From: a virus
Reading direction: 5' to 3' (one strand)
IMG/VR virus record: IMGVR_UViG_3300009418_000073
Span: 1-30,529 of that record
Length of the DNA stretch: 30,529 nucleotides
Both the position numbers and the translations under genes were made by a program. This document shows, one piece after another, positions 3,001 to 14,503 of the stretch. The notes under the pieces were generated by a model. It was not told where the DNA came from. It made no database searches and saw nothing but the letters and a program-made list of their open reading frames with translations. Within the stretch, counting starts at the first letter, position 1; every line of letters begins with the position of its first letter.

Positions 3001-3624
3001 GCCTGGGAACCGGGTCTTATGAACTCCAGTGTCCGGACTGTGATGGGAATAGCTGATGTGCCTTCTTTTACTGGCAGAAAATACCGCCCCGGTGTTGAGG
3101 TCCTGGCTGCTACTACTGGTTCACGTATCACCCAGATAAATGTCCCCCGGAGTTTTAGCTTCAAGGCGACGGAGTTTGCTAATAATCTCCGTACAGACAA
3201 GAGGATCCTTGAAGCGCAAGGCCGTTCTGCGTTCAAGCCATTCCTGGGAATCTTTAGTGGTTCGGTGAAGCAAGTTAGCCGGAGACTGCCTCTTGCTGAG
3301 AAGGTCCGAAGGCGACACTTTGTCTCGATGATCAATGACATTGATACCGCTTTGCACCTCGGTGCGACGGAAGAAGAGGTCGTAGCTGCCCTGAAGCGTA
3401 ACGGCATTAGCCGAGAGCTTATCTTTGCCTTGATGAACAGGGGCTATGTGCCTTATTTGCCCTCTGATAACATGGTTCGCCAGATCCGAGAGAGTTATGC
3501 TGGAGAAGAGAAACTCGCTATAATGGAAAAACACATTCTGGAAGAACAGAAAAAGGAGCGGGATCGAAGGGCCTCTGGCAAGTCGTTTCCGGGGTTAAGA
3601 CCTCCCTCCAAGGAGACAAAATGA
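1..3624 (+). CDS. Giant helical phage protein, likely virion/ejection (large polyvalent-type) protein
   Basis: This 1207-residue protein is predicted to be mostly alpha-helical and highly charged, with no signal peptide and no enzyme motif I can name. Around residues 590-625 it has a stretch (KTLLSSTVQVRNWSANAAI) that recalls the large polyvalent protein-associated domains found in huge phage proteins injected with or packed beside the DNA. A hydrophobic segment lies near residues 855-880 (tryptophan/alanine/valine-rich, ending in a double-methionine run), which could be membrane-interacting. Its size, its place upstream of a secreted protease, and the absence of other internal virion proteins fit an ejection or inner-capsid protein; this is inference. 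The first ATG is the first base of the window, so a longer N terminus and the ribosome binding site cannot be checked. The stop overlaps the next start as ATGA, which suggests translational coupling to the protease. Confidence 0.6.
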   Translation: MSDAKATLEDPKLWRKAFDKFWDWYAPFTKDINFTNNTFKKNYQRFMNVGGLLGKEAYTELQMNQGQVESDLMLVYQALADLDRLILSSGWGAKKKILEQYSAMERLTEKQRSDLGRLGRTPLKNIDRVAKTYGVPSELLEPIKKIRRLVDSLGKRMMDLLAPDIGPEETKAHIESRADQLKQLLASVEEGVEIPDLAEKLPDLLPKGLLDDPDFEARYGGNVLDIMLELHGSYFTRTFQVFDRNAWGEILREQAPMIQWTEEAEPGKRGKRREMPLLDAFKRELRDIDYQERLFQKRDEIYSELKYEVKDAYERYKMGYSAAGTSPGRKVPPGEPITKEDMTQIRIWMKIPPPGHIKRDPDFLEEHIPIPVEKQTLKNVRWFMEEQARLTATEDAKIFLEKVGREKYGRVEGRLTEEELEGRIDQILHPKRKKAGLVRKTMGRVDYNVFIARKLHNKKFHILLRKVMGEYRDRLDINAVRTVERLSSVLAQTRSQEYLMEIAKERKWVHVVKGRVSKVGIRTRDELPIQYRNPIPDAPEFGPFRGAYVTDTFEQALKDEFGTGYGEPSVLQEVMTWGIFRIYGKMMGSARLSKTLLSSTVQVRNWSANAAIAIVHGHIPMDRTVGQAFADAFRTTRELHWRAGKHEDKPSTKIDGKTIREYVRELLNFGVVFDSPADELASMLETTWDMPILSVMQDGPNIVDAGKIANVQRQAKRGASKVLHGSASLYRAGDDFWKVLGFGMELKTLKEAFPDESSIEDLPKNQGWEKFTGDRTHWLKKTAALRIRDIYPTFSNAPNWVQVIRWFPIMGTFPTYFEELIRTQYYEFWKMANRDLKSGNSVLMRRAQWRIARWTLANVAAGTVIKSLLRLVMMMIPGWSPLDGDDEEKMRDLEAPWAENSVLFGFKNDKTGAVYSVDLSYMLPYSRPSGFYQAIRRGKTLGAKIGGAAYEVGGDVLTADMVYTKLFEMWYGETKEGRKIFEKEDPARDRWVRSILHAWGAWEPGLMNSSVRTVMGIADVPSFTGRKYRPGVEVLAATTGSRITQINVPRSFSFKATEFANNLRTDKRILEAQGRSAFKPFLGIFSGSVKQVSRRLPLAEKVRRRHFVSMINDIDTALHLGATEEEVVAALKRNGISRELIFALMNRGYVPYLPSDNMVRQIRESYAGEEKLAIMEKHILEEQKKERDRRASGKSFPGLRPPSKETK

Positions 3625-4652
3625 CAGGATTAAAAACTATACTGGTATGGTTAGCTTTGTGCCTAGCACCCATTGGGGTGCAGGCACAAAGCTACACAAT
3701 TGCCAGAACGGCGTCTGAGGCGACCACCCAGTTGTGGGATTGGTCCCCAAAAGCAGAACATCAGAGAGCTGCCGTCAGAATCCGCTGTGGGGCCGCTGGT
3801 GGCTCCGGTGTGTGCATCTGGTCCAATGGCGATACTTTGGTCGTCCTGACCGCAGCACACGTTGTGGACGGTCCTGGGGCCGTCAGAATCTATTGGCAAG
3901 ATGGGAAGACTGCATCGGGTAGCGTGGTTGGAACCGATTCCGCCAACGATATTGCTGTAATACAGTGTAAATTCAAAGGTCGGGTGACTACGATACCTCT
4001 TGCCAGTAATCCGCCTCCTGAAGGGGCGAAAATAGAGATTCTCGGATTCGGGGGTCCACAAGACAACCTACGACGGTTTTACGGTAAGGTCATCCAGACC
4101 GGATCCAAGATTAGTGCTCAGGCTTACCTGCTCTCCGGGGACAGTGGTTCTAGTATGATTTACAAGGGAAGCGTGGTCGGGATCGCAAGGGGTGGTCCCT
4201 ACCTTTCAGCCGGTATTGTCGACGCGCGCGGGGGGCGCTGGTCACTGGTCCATCCAGCAGGTGGAGCCAGTTGCCGACCCATCGCAGCGCTGGTAGGGCG
4301 CTGCGCACCCTTTTGTGTTCGACCCACACCCACTCCACGAAGTGCGTATCCACCTATTGCTGATAACGTGCCTGGACCTGTTAGCAACAGCATTGATTAT
4401 GACTTGCTTGCAGAAAAAGTTGCGGAACTGCTTGCCGAAGACGGGCGTCTCAAAGGAGAACCCGGAAAAGATGGAGCCCCAGGAAAAGGAATAGAGCTTG
4501 ACCTGGACACGCTCAGTGAAGAAGTTGATAAACGATTACCCCCGTTGACGATCCAGATCGTGGATCGCAATGGGAAAGTCCTCTCTTCTGAGTCTCGTAG
4601 GCTTGGGGAGAAACTACAGATCCTTTTCCAACCCAAGGAGAAAAGACAATGA
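3621..4652 (+). CDS. Secreted trypsin-like serine protease with short collagen-like stretch
   Basis: The protein is 343 residues. Residues 1-23 form a signal peptide (lysine, hydrophobic core, cleavage near VQAQS). Residues about 50-200 are a chymotrypsin/trypsin-fold peptidase: the triad is His80 in LTAAHVV, Asp110 in ANDIAVI and Ser175 in SGDSGSS. A proline-rich linker follows, then four Gly-X-Y triplets (GEPGKDGAPGKG, near residues 275-286), then a short beta-rich tail. The triad is intact, so activity is expected. It starts on an ATGA overlap with the giant protein upstream and has an AAGGAG-type ribosome site inside that gene's end. Secreted trypsin-like enzymes are unusual in phages. 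It may process virion proteins, help lysis, or act on host envelope proteins; which of these cannot be told. Family assignment is firm, role is not. Confidence 0.85.
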   Translation: MTGLKTILVWLALCLAPIGVQAQSYTIARTASEATTQLWDWSPKAEHQRAAVRIRCGAAGGSGVCIWSNGDTLVVLTAAHVVDGPGAVRIYWQDGKTASGSVVGTDSANDIAVIQCKFKGRVTTIPLASNPPPEGAKIEILGFGGPQDNLRRFYGKVIQTGSKISAQAYLLSGDSGSSMIYKGSVVGIARGGPYLSAGIVDARGGRWSLVHPAGGASCRPIAALVGRCAPFCVRPTPTPRSAYPPIADNVPGPVSNSIDYDLLAEKVAELLAEDGRLKGEPGKDGAPGKGIELDLDTLSEEVDKRLPPLTIQIVDRNGKVLSSESRRLGEKLQILFQPKEKRQ

Positions 4653-5043: not shown

Positions 5044-5392
5044 TGAGGCTGTTATGATGGCTGACAAGCAGGAACTTCTGGCGATGAACCGCGCGAAGGT
5101 GAGGGCTCATGATCGTAGATTCTTGGGTGATATCGAGGAGGAAGAAGTGGGCAACATCCATATCGGAGACTTGAACCAAGTTGCTCCTCAACAGTCGGCC
5201 CCCTCCGCGCGCAGCGGTCTGGCCAAATCGGCTGGCGTCGCTGCGTTGCTGGCTCTCGGCGGCGGTACGGGGGCAGGAGGCTTGGCACTCCTAGAGTACT
5301 TGACTTCTAAGCCTGTACCCGCCGTCGAGTCTTTTGAAGACACAGATACGAATACCGAGTACGAGATGAAACTCGTGCCAAGTGGAGGATAG
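4973..5392 (+). CDS. Hypothetical protein with one glycine-rich membrane segment
   Basis: The protein is about 140 residues from the chosen ATG (MSTDEKSVAALEHL). An acidic helical N-terminal part is followed by IHIGDLNQ and a Pro/Ser-rich linker, then a hydrophobic, glycine-rich segment (LAKSAGVAALLALGGGTGAGG) near residues 80-110, and a short acidic tail. The layout suggests a single transmembrane or membrane-inserting helix. I have an impression of similar small phage proteins with a 'GDxxxGD' strand before a glycine-rich membrane helix, but no assigned function. The start at 4973 was preferred over the longer in-frame start at 4901 because the extra 24 residues are arginine/cysteine-rich and lie fully within the preceding gene. 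A virion membrane or lysis-related role is possible but unproven. Confidence 0.6.
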   Translation: MSTDEKSVAALEHLKRVGRLRIADEAVMMADKQELLAMNRAKVRAHDRRFLGDIEEEEVGNIHIGDLNQVAPQQSAPSARSGLAKSAGVAALLALGGGTGAGGLALLEYLTSKPVPAVESFEDTDTNTEYEMKLVPSGG

Positions 5393-5393
5393 C

Positions 5394-5759
5394 TTGTACC
5401 AGTACCATGTCGCAGAGGTTGTAAGGTGCATTGACGGGGACACGATTCAGTTGGTGTTTGATCTGGGGTTTCACCTCAGACTGAATGCCACTTGTCGGTT
5501 GTACGGAATCAACTGCTTCGAAAAACGGGGTCCGGAACGAGAGAAGGGACTGGCTGCACAAGAGTGCCTGGAAGAGCTGATCGAAGGAAAGAGACTCTGG
5601 TGCGTAAGCAGAAAGAATCCAAAAAAACAGCAGGGCAAGTACGGTCGCTGGCTTGTCGATCTCTGGGTAGAAAGCGATGACAGCGAAAACGGAATGAATG
5701 TGAACCAGGAGCTGATTCGGAGGGGTCACGCTACCGTCTACATGGCAGACCTAAAATAG
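5394..5759 (+). CDS. SNase-like (thermonuclease-family) nuclease
   Basis: This is a staphylococcal nuclease-fold protein of about 121 residues. From the TTG start, residues 10-17 read VRCIDGDT, the family's calcium-binding signature. R35LYGINCFE43 supplies the catalytic Arg and Glu, and GKYGRW supplies Arg84 as the second catalytic arginine. Calcium-dependent cleavage of DNA or RNA is the known activity of the family. I chose TTG at 5394 because GGAGGA lies four bases upstream and the protein then begins MYQYHVAEVV, which matches how phage members of this family usually begin. A GTG at 5382 gives four more residues but lacks a ribosome site. It is shorter than secreted SNases and has no signal peptide, so it probably acts in the cytoplasm, perhaps on host DNA. 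The neighbours do not settle the substrate. Confidence 0.85.
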   Translation: MYQYHVAEVVRCIDGDTIQLVFDLGFHLRLNATCRLYGINCFEKRGPEREKGLAAQECLEELIEGKRLWCVSRKNPKKQQGKYGRWLVDLWVESDDSENGMNVNQELIRRGHATVYMADLK

Positions 5760-8644: not shown

Positions 8645-8925
8645 TTCCTGTTCTCCTCTGGTTTGAAGTGTATCTTATAACCACCACGATGGACAGCTCC
8701 GTGGTGGATTGACTGGTAACTCGGTGTAACGTAGTCCTCCCCTCTGAAGACCCTGCGCTGTCTCTCTTCCTTGGATGTCCACGTTGCTCGGATCCTCGCA
8801 GACTCTCGCGCAATGCGGTGATCCATTACCTGGGAGGCATTGGCATCGAGGTCGCAGTTTTTGATCGCCCATTTGTCAATGGCGTCAACGACGTTTCTGG
8901 GTAGCTCGTTTTTTCTCTTAGGCAT
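8641..8925 (-). CDS. Small basic hypothetical protein (94 aa) between primase-helicase and resolvase
   Basis: This is an unrecognised 94-residue protein, rich in Arg, Lys and His, with no cysteine pairs beyond a single Cys and no membrane segment. Possible helices occur at residues 10-25 and 35-55. The ATG at 8925 overlaps the stop of the primase-helicase gene, and its own stop overlaps the resolvase start (ATGA), so it belongs to the same transcript. A longer upstream reading would run into the primase gene and reads like out-of-frame primase sequence. The basic character and position suggest DNA binding, which remains a guess. Confidence 0.6.
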   Translation of the reverse strand: MPKRKNELPRNVVDAIDKWAIKNCDLDANASQVMDHRIARESARIRATWTSKEERQRRVFRGEDYVTPSYQSIHHGAVHRGGYKIHFKPEENRK

Positions 8926-10642
8926 CGCTAAATATCTGGGTCTCTGCGTCAAAGCGAAACACCATCTTCCTCTTGCGAATTGGACCGTTGCGTCTCTTGA
9001 TACAGTGGACTTCGAAATCGTCCTTGTCACCGCTCGACTTCTCACTTCGACCGTGCCAGAAGCAGGCGAGGATGGCATCTGCGTCCTGTTCAATGCTGCC
9101 GCTCTCTTTCATGTCCGACAGATTGAACTGGATGTTCTCCCTTCGATCTACATCCCTGCTGACCTGACAGAGGGCCAGGATCCCCACATTGTAATCTCGG
9201 GCAGCTGCCTTGATTCTACGGCTGATCTCACTGACTTCCTCGTAACGCCCTTCCTTTTCGCCTGCAATCAATTGCAAGTAGTCAATGGCCACGAGCTGGA
9301 CGGCGTGGGCCTGAACGCACTCCCGGATCGACTTCTCGATATCACCAATGGTGGTGACGCACCGGACGAATGGCCTTGCCTTGCCCTTGAAGTGCTTGTC
9401 GACTTTCTCAAGGGCCTTGTCCCTGTTCTTCTTCCACGACTCCTCGGAGCCGCCAACCAGTCTCTGGACCATCCTCCTGCCCAGCTCGTACTGACTCATC
9501 TCTGCTGAGAGAAGGAGAGTGGGTGTCCCCTGGCTGGCTTGGTGATCCAACCAGTGAAGCGCGAAGCTGCTTTTACCATGTCCGGGTCTGGCTGCGATAA
9601 TGCAGACCTCTCCCGGACCCACCCCGTCAATCGATTGGTCTACGGCCTTTACTCCACACCCAAAGTAGTTGTGAGTGCCTAGTTGGCTGAGGAACATCGT
9701 GGCACAGGAAGCAAGGTCTTCATGTACCTGCGACTGGTTCCGCTTCCCCATTAGCTCGTAGGCCTTGCGAACAGTGAGGTCGATCCAGCGGTCAGACTTC
9801 TTGTAGCCGATTTCGTCGCACCAATACCGTATGGCAGCTTTGATCTCGTTGTCTGGGATGCCTCGCTGATAGATCAGCTCTCTGGCGATACAGAAGGCGA
9901 TGGTGCTGCGGCTGGTGTCTCCTTTGAGTCCGGCGGTGTCACCCCGCCACCGACGTGCCAGGAGGCTGTCAGGCCACTTCAGAATCTCGTGAACACGCTC
10001 GCTGACGAAAGACCCGCTTTCCTTGGGGACCTTCTTCACAAGCGTCTCCCCCAACTTGGCAGCGATCTCGTCAAGATCGCTGCCAACCACAGGATGTACT
10101 TCGAGTTCGACTGTCTCCCAGTCGTTCTCCACATCCACAAACCTGGAGTTGTTCCATCCGGGGTACCGAACTAGGTTGCCCATTCCTTCGCCTGATAACT
10201 TGTCTTGCCGGGGGTATATTTCTCGTATCGGGATATCAACTTTCTTGGCCACAGACTTCCAGAACGACCTGACTTGCACAGCCGGGACTGGTTCCGAAAA
10301 GTGTAACCAGAGATGGGCTCCTGCTCCGCTGGAGCTAACTTCCATGACAGGCTTCAGGCCTTGTTCAGCCAGAAAGTGGTAGTAGCTCGTGGCTTTGGCT
10401 CTCCACTCTGGATCAGGGTCGTCGGAATGGTCGTCGAAGTCGAGACACGAGCAGTACACCTTGTTGTCTGGGGTCATGAGATAGAACCCGAAACAAATCT
10501 CTTGGCCCAAGTGACCCTTGCTGAACTTCTCGGGGTCAAGTGGGATAGTGTTCAGCTTGTGGGGGCGGAACCCCTTGCCGTTCTGGAGAGCGATGTACTC
10601 TTCCCGGCCTCTGAAATGTTCTAGGATCTTAGTCGAGTCCAT
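8918..10642 (-). CDS. Primase-helicase fusion: AEP-type primase, PriCT-like linker and DnaB/RecA-type helicase
   Basis: The protein is 574 residues. Residues 1-180 match an archaeo-eukaryotic primase (AEP) of the kind found in phage and TOTE-type proteins: C66LDFDDH with metal-binding Asp68 and Asp70, SSGAGAHLWLHF (105-114) and EIYPRQD (141-147). Residues about 240-300 (helical, ending DLTVRKAYELM) resemble a PriCT-like linker. From about 325 on is a DnaB/RecA helicase core: Walker A ARPGHGKSS (351-359), LLLSAEM (377-382), Walker B VAIDYLQLI with Asp454, LCQVSRDVD with Gln493, and the IKRRNG arginine region near 548-553. One polypeptide thus supplies priming and unwinding, analogous to T7 gp4 but with an unrelated primase fold. 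AGGAGGG precedes the start. The DnaB N-terminal domain is absent, presumably replaced by the primase. Confidence 0.9.
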   Translation of the reverse strand: MDSTKILEHFRGREEYIALQNGKGFRPHKLNTIPLDPEKFSKGHLGQEICFGFYLMTPDNKVYCSCLDFDDHSDDPDPEWRAKATSYYHFLAEQGLKPVMEVSSSGAGAHLWLHFSEPVPAVQVRSFWKSVAKKVDIPIREIYPRQDKLSGEGMGNLVRYPGWNNSRFVDVENDWETVELEVHPVVGSDLDEIAAKLGETLVKKVPKESGSFVSERVHEILKWPDSLLARRWRGDTAGLKGDTSRSTIAFCIARELIYQRGIPDNEIKAAIRYWCDEIGYKKSDRWIDLTVRKAYELMGKRNQSQVHEDLASCATMFLSQLGTHNYFGCGVKAVDQSIDGVGPGEVCIIAARPGHGKSSFALHWLDHQASQGTPTLLLSAEMSQYELGRRMVQRLVGGSEESWKKNRDKALEKVDKHFKGKARPFVRCVTTIGDIEKSIRECVQAHAVQLVAIDYLQLIAGEKEGRYEEVSEISRRIKAAARDYNVGILALCQVSRDVDRRENIQFNLSDMKESGSIEQDADAILACFWHGRSEKSSGDKDDFEVHCIKRRNGPIRKRKMVFRFDAETQIFSDA

Positions 10643-11031: not shown

Positions 11032-11550
11032 TTACAGCTCGTTCCACTCGCCCTTGGTGGCCGTAGTGGCTCCAGCTTCGCTCGCCCAAGCCTCGCCATG
11101 AAGGGCGTTCACTTCGGCTAGGTCGCTCTCAGAAAGCTCCACAGCTGGCCCAGCAGAGGCTCTGGCCATGACTGGCCGCCACTTCTCGAAAGGGGTATCC
11201 CCTTCTTTCTTTGGCGGATCATAAGAGAGGGTCCACCAGCCTTCATTCCCCACGCAGTTGGAGTTTCCCTCTGCGATGTGAATGTCGGCAGGATGATCTC
11301 CCTTGAAACCAATCGTTTCCGATTCGAGTTCCCGCTTGACGAACGACACGCTCTTTTTGGTCAGAGGACCGTAGTAGGTACACTTGTTGTCAAACTCCTC
11401 GGTTTCAACGGGTACTGCATCCTCACCGGGAGTAACTTCGTGGAGCAGGACATTGAGGGTCAGGTAGACCGTCCAGTTGCCATTTCCACTTTTTCCGAGA
11501 CGCTGTGACGCTACGCTACAAAAATACTTTCCAGCTTCAAGTTTACTCAT
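11032..11550 (-). CDS. Putative ssDNA-binding / recombination-associated protein
   Basis: The protein is 172 residues. The first 120 look beta-rich with aromatic positions (KYFCSVASQRLGKSGNGNWTVYLTLNVL; GWWTLSYD), compatible with an OB-fold or similar small DNA-binding domain. The last 45 residues are low-complexity, Ala/Glu-rich and acidic, ending GEWNEL, reminiscent of the acidic tails of SSBs, although the usual DDIPF-like end is not present. Phage Sak4-type ATPase genes are often next to an SSB or a DUF669-like protein, and this gene is directly downstream of the Sak4-like gene with a 4-base overlap. The role is therefore inferred mostly from context. Confidence 0.5.
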   Translation of the reverse strand: MSKLEAGKYFCSVASQRLGKSGNGNWTVYLTLNVLLHEVTPGEDAVPVETEEFDNKCTYYGPLTKKSVSFVKRELESETIGFKGDHPADIHIAEGNSNCVGNEGWWTLSYDPPKKEGDTPFEKWRPVMARASAGPAVELSESDLAEVNALHGEAWASEAGATTATKGEWNEL

Positions 11551-12359
11551 TTCTTTTTCCTTTCGTTAAGGTGCTTCACTAGGTTCTTCCAGCCTTGTTT
11601 TCCATCCGGGCCAAGAGAGAACTTGGTCATCCCCAAACGGTTTCCAGCAATCCAAGCAGCAGAGCCTTCGCAGTACATGAAGCGTTCTGTACCACCCTTC
11701 CCCTTCGCTCGGTTGCCATCTTCATCAACCACGACGACGGTATTGATGAAACCAATCAGATCAGCACACTGATGCAGGGATCCCCACTGGCGTGGGTGCA
11801 TTTGCGGAGTGTACTGGTCGTAGTCCTGGCCAGCAGGATTCTTGAAGGGCTTGACCAATGTATGGCAGAGGCCAATCACCGACATGTCCTTTTCTTCCCG
11901 CAGCTTGTCCAGACCTCGCAACAACTGTTTCCAGTGGGGCGTGGCCGTCTGGTAACCTTGCATGTAAGAGAGGAACCCACGAGGCCCCCGGTCGCCGCCA
12001 TACTCTGTCTCACATACATGGTCATACAACATCTCTTCGAACCCGTTCAGCGTATCGAGAACCACGGTCTGGAAGTCGTGTTTGTGACTCCAGAGGGCTT
12101 CGATCGCTTCCAGTAATTCGGTCCAAGTCTTCAGTTCCGGCAGATGCGAAACAGGCGGTAGCTGGTCGTGGTCGATCAGGGTTTCTAGGCCTGTCTCTCC
12201 ACGAGACATCAGGACAACCGGCTTCTTTGCATTTGCAGCAAGCGTAGTCTTGCCAATCTTCTCCGGGCCGTGGAAAACCATAAATGGCTTTAGCCCACGA
12301 CCTGTTCCGGTTATCTGTGTCAGGATACCGGCGGGTGCCTCAGCTGTTGCGTTTGGCAT
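11547..12359 (-). CDS. Sak4-type RecA-like AAA ATPase (ssDNA annealing/recombination)
   Basis: The protein is 270 residues from the chosen start. Walker A is G31PEKIGKTT39; Walker B is TVVLDTL with Asp102. VIGLCHT near residue 160 fits the sensor strand, and the stretch after it (QYTPQMHPRQWGSL) is typical of the phage AAA_24/Sak4 group. Sak4 proteins are minimal RecA-fold annealing proteins used by phages for recombination, usually with an SSB. ATG at 12359 was chosen because AAAGGAAAGAG lies just before it; the ATG five codons upstream lacks a good site. The start overlaps the end of the nuclease gene by 20 bases, and the SSB-like gene follows with ATGA. Confidence 0.8.
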   Translation of the reverse strand: MPNATAEAPAGILTQITGTGRGLKPFMVFHGPEKIGKTTLAANAKKPVVLMSRGETGLETLIDHDQLPPVSHLPELKTWTELLEAIEALWSHKHDFQTVVLDTLNGFEEMLYDHVCETEYGGDRGPRGFLSYMQGYQTATPHWKQLLRGLDKLREEKDMSVIGLCHTLVKPFKNPAGQDYDQYTPQMHPRQWGSLHQCADLIGFINTVVVVDEDGNRAKGKGGTERFMYCEGSAAWIAGNRLGMTKFSLGPDGKQGWKNLVKHLNERKKK

Positions 12360-13332
12360 GCTCTTTCCTTTCATTCCAATACGCTTCTAGGGACGAATGA
12401 AACACTTTGCCGAAGCGCAAAGCAGGTGCTTCAGGTTTGATCGGTTCGATCTTCTCGTTGTATCTCCAGTAGGCCTTCCGGCGACAGGACTGGAAGCAAG
12501 TTGCCCGAGAGTGCGAGATGCAGCGATCTCCGGAGAGATCGCTGCCCCCACGCTCCTGCCACTTCTCTGTGTCTTCTGGGTACGAAACCCCTTGGCAGAG
12601 GTCAAAGTATTCGCACTTCTGGCCGTACGAGAGGCAGTTACTGGTGTTCTGGTAGTGGGCCTTGGTCTCTTCTGCCCGTTCCATGTCCCGGCACAGGGCA
12701 ACCAGCTGCTTGGAGTAGTCCACCATTTGCGCCTCGTTGCGATGAACGAGGGAGTATTGGTAGAAGAATCTGTCCGGGTCCTCTGCCACATCGGCGGCAA
12801 TTCTCATCTTGTAGAGCGGTGCGGTCTCCTGCGACAAAGGGGTCTCAGCGGCCTTCTGAGGGGCTTTGGTCCCATAGTAGGTTCCGAGGTCCTCTATCTC
12901 GCTGCGCGTCCCTACGGCCCCCTCAGAGCCTCTGGGGATGCGTTTGGGCTTTGTAGTGATTTTCTTCACCACATCGTAGACGGTTTTGCGGATCTTCTCA
13001 CCCATGAACCACTGGGCCATGTGGTAACCAGACAGCTGGGCATCGAACGAGAGCTTCTGGTAGTACGGATCCCACAGCTGCCGGATGTCGCTGGCCGACC
13101 GGGTCTTGTGTTCAACCAAGATCAAGCCCTGCTTGTCTCGCAGGAGCAGATCGATTTTGCCGACGTACCGCCAGCCGTTGGGGAACTTGAGCCGGAAATC
13201 CTTTTCGACCGCAACGATTTCACCAGTGAAGTTCTTCCACTGATCGTGGTAGGCCTGGGCCAGAACAGAGGCTCGGGCCTTGTCGATTGGAGAGAGGTCT
13301 GAGTCGTCAATTACCGATAGATGGGCGTCCAT
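12340..13332 (-). CDS. Cas4/RecB-like PD-(D/E)XK nuclease with apparently permuted motif order
   Basis: The protein is 330 residues from the ATG at 13332, which has AAGGAGG upstream. Residues 57-76 carry the core nuclease motifs (VGKIDLLL with Asp61; ILVEHKT with Glu74 and Lys76). C233LSYGQKC240EYFDLC246 matches the C-terminal iron-sulfur cysteines of the Cas4/AddB-like group. The last 60 residues read ISHSRATCFQSC283RRKAYWRY and then ALRFGKVFH312SSLEAYW; in this family that block (first cysteine, motif-I histidine) normally begins the protein, before the Asp and Glu-x-Lys motifs. All the expected parts are present but in a rotated order. It would be an exonuclease or flap nuclease acting with the Sak4 and SSB-like genes downstream. 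No cas1, cas2 or array is nearby, so a CRISPR role is unlikely. Confidence 0.8.
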   Translation of the reverse strand: MDAHLSVIDDSDLSPIDKARASVLAQAYHDQWKNFTGEIVAVEKDFRLKFPNGWRYVGKIDLLLRDKQGLILVEHKTRSASDIRQLWDPYYQKLSFDAQLSGYHMAQWFMGEKIRKTVYDVVKKITTKPKRIPRGSEGAVGTRSEIEDLGTYYGTKAPQKAAETPLSQETAPLYKMRIAADVAEDPDRFFYQYSLVHRNEAQMVDYSKQLVALCRDMERAEETKAHYQNTSNCLSYGQKCEYFDLCQGVSYPEDTEKWQERGGSDLSGDRCISHSRATCFQSCRRKAYWRYNEKIEPIKPEAPALRFGKVFHSSLEAYWNERKEHAKRNS

Positions 13333-13724: not shown

Positions 13725-14456
13725 TCATGGCATGGTAACTTCCTCGGGTTGTTCGGTCAACCCATAGCCATGACGCCGACAGAGCTTGGAGATTGCCGAT
13801 TCGGTAAATGGCTTACCAGCCCGGTTGAGGAGTCCCTCGATGGCAAGGAACTTGGAGATGTCATTCAGAGTGGTCCCCATTCCTCTCATGATCTTGATCT
13901 TTGTCAGGATCTCCTGCTCCTTTGGGCAGGGAATCAAGCGAGAGGAGTCCTCGGGGTCTACCATCAAGCCCGTGTTCGGATGGGCGTTGAATCGTTTGCC
14001 CTGGCTCTTGAGATGCGCGACCGTTCGTTTGCTGTGCTCTGACGTTCGCTCTCGTTCCCAGTTGGCGATGAGGCCAATCAGGTAGAGCATCATGCGGCCA
14101 ATCGGGGATGCCAGATCAATCTGCTCGCTAATGGAAATGAGGTTACGCTCTGGTCCCTTTTCAGGCCGCAGGTGGTCCTCGACGATGTGGATCAGGTTGG
14201 AGAGATTTCTGGTAAGGCGGTCCAGATCAACTACGACGATCCCCTGAATTCCCTCTTCCTGCATTCGGTGAAACAGGCGAAGGAGACCGGGCCTCTTCAT
14301 GTCCTTGGCACTGCCGATCTCCGATACAACGTCCACCAGCTCGGTGTCCGGATGGAGCTTGGCGTAGGCCCTGATCTGGGTGTCCTGTTCGTCCAAGCTG
14401 TGGCCCTCTTGCCCCTGTTCCTGTGTGCTGACCCTTGTGTATCCAATTAGTTTCAT
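13725..14456 (-). CDS. Serine recombinase (resolvase/invertase family)
   Basis: The protein is 243 residues. MKLIGYTRVS places the catalytic Ser at position 10 with the preceding conserved Arg8. Next come SLDEQDTQIRAYA, the VVVDLDRLTRNL helix-strand near residues 75-86 with catalytic arginines, and IGRMMLYLIGLIANWERE, the family's long E helix. The C-terminal part (DISKFLAIEGLLNRAGKPFTESAISKLCRRHGYG) is a helix-turn-helix-like DNA-binding unit. It is a small resolvase-type enzyme, not one of the large serine integrases. It may integrate, resolve multimers or invert a segment. ATG at 14456 has AAGGGGAG upstream. It follows three small genes on the same strand; the non-coding gap just downstream may hold its site. 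Confidence 0.9.
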   Translation of the reverse strand: MKLIGYTRVSTQEQGQEGHSLDEQDTQIRAYAKLHPDTELVDVVSEIGSAKDMKRPGLLRLFHRMQEEGIQGIVVVDLDRLTRNLSNLIHIVEDHLRPEKGPERNLISISEQIDLASPIGRMMLYLIGLIANWERERTSEHSKRTVAHLKSQGKRFNAHPNTGLMVDPEDSSRLIPCPKEQEILTKIKIMRGMGTTLNDISKFLAIEGLLNRAGKPFTESAISKLCRRHGYGLTEQPEEVTMP

Positions 14457-14503
14457 TGCTTGCTCCCCTTTCAATCGTCCCTAGTATCAGTGGTTAATAC
14501 GCA

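Follow-up and report, generated by a model that had tools for sequence, protein, structure and literature searches.

The nucleases of the Cas4/AddB-like PD-(D/E)XK group present their motifs in the order of a block with the first cysteine and a histidine, then an aspartate, an ExK motif and three further cysteines. This order is not met in a nuclease gene carried by a viral DNA of 30,529 nucleotides (IMG/VR record IMGVR_UViG_3300009418_000073; the whole stretch is referred to here as the window), where the usual opening block comes last. The locus raises the question of whether this reflects a natural rotation of the domain, or whether the gene is truncated, misassembled or joined to a second domain. 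The rotated order marks the protein as a permuted relative and hence not as an ordinary Cas4/AddB member. An initial annotation, made from the sequence alone, had proposed a natural permutation of a Cas4/AddB-like nuclease, and this proposal is supported by profile matches, a family of relatives, alignments to doubled canonical sequences and structural models. It is very likely (a probability of about 0.9) that the gene encodes a natural circular permutant of such a nuclease with a four-cysteine, putative Fe-S, staple, although no activity, cluster or structure has been measured.

The gene and its two parts

The gene and the two parts into which it is divided are as follows.

12340..13332, minus strand: nuclease, very likely a circularly permuted Cas4/AddB-like PD-(D/E)XK exonuclease, 330 amino acids plus stop
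12550..13332, minus strand: part A, amino acids 1-261, the core with Asp61, Glu74-x-Lys76 and Cys233/240/246
12343..12549, minus strand: part B, amino acids 262-330, with Cys283 and His312

Part A is equivalent to a canonical protein from about residue 54 up to its C-terminus, and part B is the block found N-terminally in canonical proteins. The translation confirms the motif positions and order that had been annotated, with G58-K59-I60-D61 and E74-H75-K76 followed by C233, C240 and C246, and with C283 and H312 last. All four putative cluster-ligand cysteines thereby lie inside 51 residues.

Swapped profile matches

The C-terminal 69 amino acids alone match positions 2-56 of the Pfam PDDEXK_1 profile (E 1.2e-8) and positions 5-65 of PHROG 1218 (E 4.5e-14), and the nuclease without them matches positions 93-247 (E 1.1e-6) and 104-342 (E 1.9e-18) of the same two profiles. 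The whole protein scores 57 bits against PDDEXK_1, for which the curated cut-off is 22, in two swapped stretches, and reaches an E of 6.8e-32 against the PHROG 1218 exonuclease. The canonical homologue L024 matches PHROG 1218 as a single stretch, residues 1-298 to positions 8-334. The two halves of the nuclease belong to one family with their order swapped, far beyond chance.

Such separate searches had been suggested by the initial annotation, and the expectation of the same families in swapped order held. The two outcomes that it named as refuting failed to appear: the C-terminal block is not a different domain, as it matches the start of the same family profiles, and there is no frame error with a normal N-terminal block upstream of position 13332. 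Moreover, no second copy was found in the window locus.

Rotation rather than loss

The permuted proteins were aligned to canonical homologues written twice in tandem. For the window protein, L004, L009, L156, L157 and L034, a full-length alignment is obtained only with the doubled canonical sequence. The window protein covers 70-381 of doubled L024 (length 327) with 91/331 identities, L157 covers 81-434 of doubled L133 (length 358) with 210/354 identities, and L034 covers 138-457 of doubled L023 (length 327) with 132/321 identities. The closest of these pairs is L156, which covers 67-388 of doubled L118 (length 321) with 191/326 identities, the permuted and the canonical protein being about 59% identical. 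In most members, the junction reads from the canonical tail '..HPEL' into the canonical start 'L(P)xLTxSR'. A short linker connects the original C-terminal tail with what was the N-terminal block, and the window nuclease now begins and ends in the loop that separates the His-bearing helix from the helix after it. The reading as a domain rotation and not a truncation therefore held, on these alignments together with the swapped profiles.

Predicted structure

A structure prediction, which had been proposed as a check, returned a confident AF2 model for the window protein (mean pLDDT 93.5, pTM 0.88), as it did for the canonical control L024 (pLDDT 93.6, pTM 0.87). The secondary-structure order of the permuted model is that of the control with the first four elements moved to the end: H5-13, H15-23, E26-28 and H33-50 of L024 correspond to H274-282, H284-292, E295-297 and H303-329, and the remaining elements keep the same order.

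In VIA-align comparisons, the canonical model (1-296) matches AdnA 794-1039 with Z 15.9, rmsd 3.4 and 221 aligned residues, and as 1-298 it matches ACE1 Cas4 12-274 with Z 14.5, rmsd 3.4 and 226 aligned. The permuted model matches AdnA 843-1039 over residues 1-249 (Z 9.1, rmsd 3.2, 172 aligned) and ACE1 80-267 over residues 1-250 (Z 7.9, rmsd 3.3, 170 aligned). These alignments lack the first 50-80 residues of the targets, which is the stretch that moved. The structural alignments thus agree with the rotated element order, but the moved block was not superposed; that it keeps its canonical placement is predicted by the model, and rests on model confidence and on the stretch missing from the sequential alignments. 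Besides Cas4, the canonical model also matches AddB, RecE and MGME1 structures, among which the canonical order is general. A sequence search of solved structures gave no true relative.

A family of permuted nucleases

Profile-guided scans found 53 distinct permuted ORFs and 96 distinct canonical ORFs. The permuted set includes the nucleases of Tunturi_1 and Tunturi_2, complete isolate phages infecting Tunturiibacter, which are annotated 'exonuclease', have the motif order of the window protein and share 29-32% identity with it. The check for the same order in related phages, also suggested at the outset, was in this way met. Three other IMG/VR contigs carry the window gene with 0-1 base differences over 990, and one permuted member sits in an Acidobacteriia MAG. 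The two final viral scans returned only permutants that were already known, and a search of plasmids with the Tunturi query found no permuted relatives.

In an alignment of 47 permuted members, D61, K76, C233, C240, C246, C283 and H312 are invariant, and position 74 is D or E in permuted relatives. In the four close pairs for which the calculation could be made (NG86), dN is well below dS, as with L018/L020 (0.067/0.80) and the Tunturi pair (0.065/0.43), and purifying selection is therefore indicated in the tested pairs.

A separate observation concerns L109:3310-4059, a relative of the permuted type whose reading frame is interrupted past the core; a frameshift in that contig is the probable cause.

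Number of origins and cut sites

What the initial annotation had missed is that the rotation is widespread, with more than one event and at least three cut sites. In a register-corrected tree, compared by AU tests, the window type and a large permuted group fall outside a canonical clade, and L156 and, at another place, L157/L160 fall inside it. A single clade of all permuted rows is rejected (AU p = 1.9e-5), and a grouping of L156 with L157/L160 is rejected more weakly (AU p = 0.026). L157/L160 and the canonical L133 have a long insert in common; L156 is without it and is a short form, like the canonical L118. Separate origins of L156 and L157/L160 are likely, resting on the weaker p value and the insert. 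For the window type and the large permuted group, union in one clade is not rejected (p = 0.29) but is not shown either, and remains a possibility.

The cut site of the window clade lies just before the short helix that follows the His helix (in L009, at L118 residue 56/57), that of L156 and L157 just after this helix (in L156, at L118 residue 67), and that of L034 between the Asp strand and the ExK strand (L023 residue 130/138). L034 represents a further rotation type in the same family:

L034:4998-5864: permuted nuclease, known from a single contig

The L034 protein starts with MGRWLVEHKTTSEDI and ends with ..LRGKIDAIVEAE; a search for its relatives found only its own contig. Since the cut sites differ and a single clade is rejected, the family is likely to have been rotated at least three times and probably four, with the reservation that L034 and L156 are each represented by one contig.

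Alternative explanations

The rearrangement of a canonical gene by misassembly or a frame artefact has in its favour that the relatives are mostly from metagenomic contigs, and that L156 and L034 are single contigs. For the window family this explanation is refuted by the near-identical gene in other contigs, by the two complete isolates with the same order and by 53 distinct ORFs with conserved motifs. Moreover, L157 and L160 are separate records, each from another metagenome, that differ by 10 bases and 2 residues, and the L034 nuclease has clean junctions with its neighbour genes. An artefact is thus all but excluded. The C-terminal block could alternatively be a separate second domain, with the nuclease working without any N-terminal block, a reading to which its position after the core and past a linker lends some support. 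However, the block matches the first 60 profile positions of the same family, it supplies a cysteine and a histidine that the core lacks, both of them invariant, and no permuted ORF has two blocks, which makes this reading very unlikely.

It could also be argued that a single permutation took place and that the canonical forms nested alongside the permuted ones have reverted, as the window clade, L156 and L157 have their cuts in a similar region. Against this stand the rejection of one clade for all permuted rows, the different cut sites of L009, L156 and L034, and the generality of the canonical order in Cas4, AddB, RecE and MGME1 structures. Hence a single origin also appears very improbable, and the preferred reading remains that of repeated natural permutation.

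The operon and inferred function

Two genes accompany the nuclease gene.

11547..12374, minus strand: Sak4-like ssDNA-annealing ATPase (PHROG 124, E 1.2e-34; Pfam AAA_24)
11032..11550, minus strand: third gene of the module, for a putative protein of the single-strand-binding type, in the same position as the SSB-annotated gene of Tunturi

The Sak4-like gene overlaps the nuclease gene by 35 bases. Directly behind the nuclease, a Sak4-like gene is present in 52 of the 53 permuted loci and 84 of the 96 canonical ones, and likewise at L034. The annotation of the third gene is weak, its protein having no Pfam or PHROG match; a profile made with the SSB-type proteins of the window and of Tunturi finds the corresponding gene in L058/L059.

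The Cas4 protein Sso0001 is a 5'-3' exonuclease, and in AddB the same four cysteines act as a structural staple (PMC3466216). The Sak4 of HK620 anneals single strands and is stimulated by its SSB (PMC5928155). By inference, the nuclease, Sak4 and SSB-type genes would form a phage recombination/repair module, in which the nuclease would resect DNA ends 5'-3' and the resulting 3' single strands would be used by the Sak4 annealing protein with the SSB-type protein. It is likely, though inferred in the absence of measured activity, that the permuted enzyme performs the same resection as its canonical counterpart; the data here hold no evidence of a changed function.

Elsewhere in the window, 13725-14474 (minus strand), upstream of the nuclease, encodes a serine recombinase with a Resolvase N-terminal domain, which suggests that the phage is, or once was, temperate. 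At 8918-10642 (minus strand), a primase domain of the archaeo-eukaryotic type (Pfam AEP-TOTE) is fused to a DnaB-type helicase. On the plus strand are a trypsin-like protease (3621-4652), which has a short run of collagen-like Gly-X-Y close to its C-terminus, and a small staphylococcal-nuclease-type protein (Pfam SNase; 5382-5759).

How the rotation may have arisen and why it might be tolerated

Cys1 is close to the old N-terminus and Cys2-4 are close to the old C-terminus; they would meet at one cluster, and it is inferred that the old ends are for this reason held side by side. With the termini adjacent, a short linker would suffice and the fold would be kept, so that the Fe-S staple, by bringing the termini together, may be what allows them to be rejoined.

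Two textbook routes lead to permutation, one through duplication plus trimming and the other through fission and fusion (PMC3320104). As a possible third route, it is proposed here that a gene circle is excised and re-inserted at another point. In this family the gene may have been permuted in place, either through duplication followed by trimming or through excision with re-insertion. Neither two-block intermediates nor block remnants beside the gene were found in the permuted ORFs and loci scanned, and these two routes therefore cannot be distinguished.

A bolder reading, which could as readily prove wrong as right, is that the family is a natural hot spot in which working permutants arise repeatedly at several cut sites. 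The Fe-S staple would hold the termini, phage annealing recombination would duplicate or re-insert short gene circles in place, and some permutants would be recent enough for a canonical relative still to be about 59% identical.

Significance and comparison with known systems

Most known natural circular permutations are old events that took place once. In the present case, a single enzyme family shows several permutations at three cut sites, with catalytic and cluster residues and operon place kept and with close canonical relatives, and it allows the origin of permutation, and what permits it, to be tested. The window nuclease itself offers a naturally permuted nuclease of the Fe-S type, the cluster being inferred. 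The drop in structural Z from about 15 to about 9 also indicates that order-dependent searches and fold comparisons under-report permuted proteins. The literature searched yielded no account of a permuted phage nuclease of the Cas4/RecB type, and neither the Cas4 phylogenomics paper nor the Tunturi paper mentions permutation; coverage was partial and priority is unproven.

The nearest known proteins are the PHROG 1218 phage exonucleases (Cas4-like, pfam12705), which are like the permutants in all motifs, the four cysteines, length and the Sak4 gene behind. Unlike these, the permutants have a rotated motif order and no full-length colinear profile match. The Cas4 proteins (Sso0001, ACE1 and type I-C Cas4) have the PD-(D/E)XK core and four-Cys cluster motif in common with the window nuclease, whose residues 1-250 they match structurally, but they differ in order. 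The context also appears to differ: no CRISPR-like repeats were seen in the window, in that no direct-repeat family of >=20 bases within 120 bases was found, and the neighbours scanned are phage recombination and replication genes, the scan for Cas proteins covering only some of the ORFs. The nuclease domains of AddB/AdnA are alike in the RecB-type nuclease fold and, in AddB, the four-Cys staple, whereas the order differs and the window protein stands alone and is not part of a helicase. As with lambda Exo and Red beta, exonuclease and annealing genes are adjacent and the division of labour is inferred to be the same, but the window has a nuclease of the four-cysteine subfamily and Sak4 instead of Red beta.
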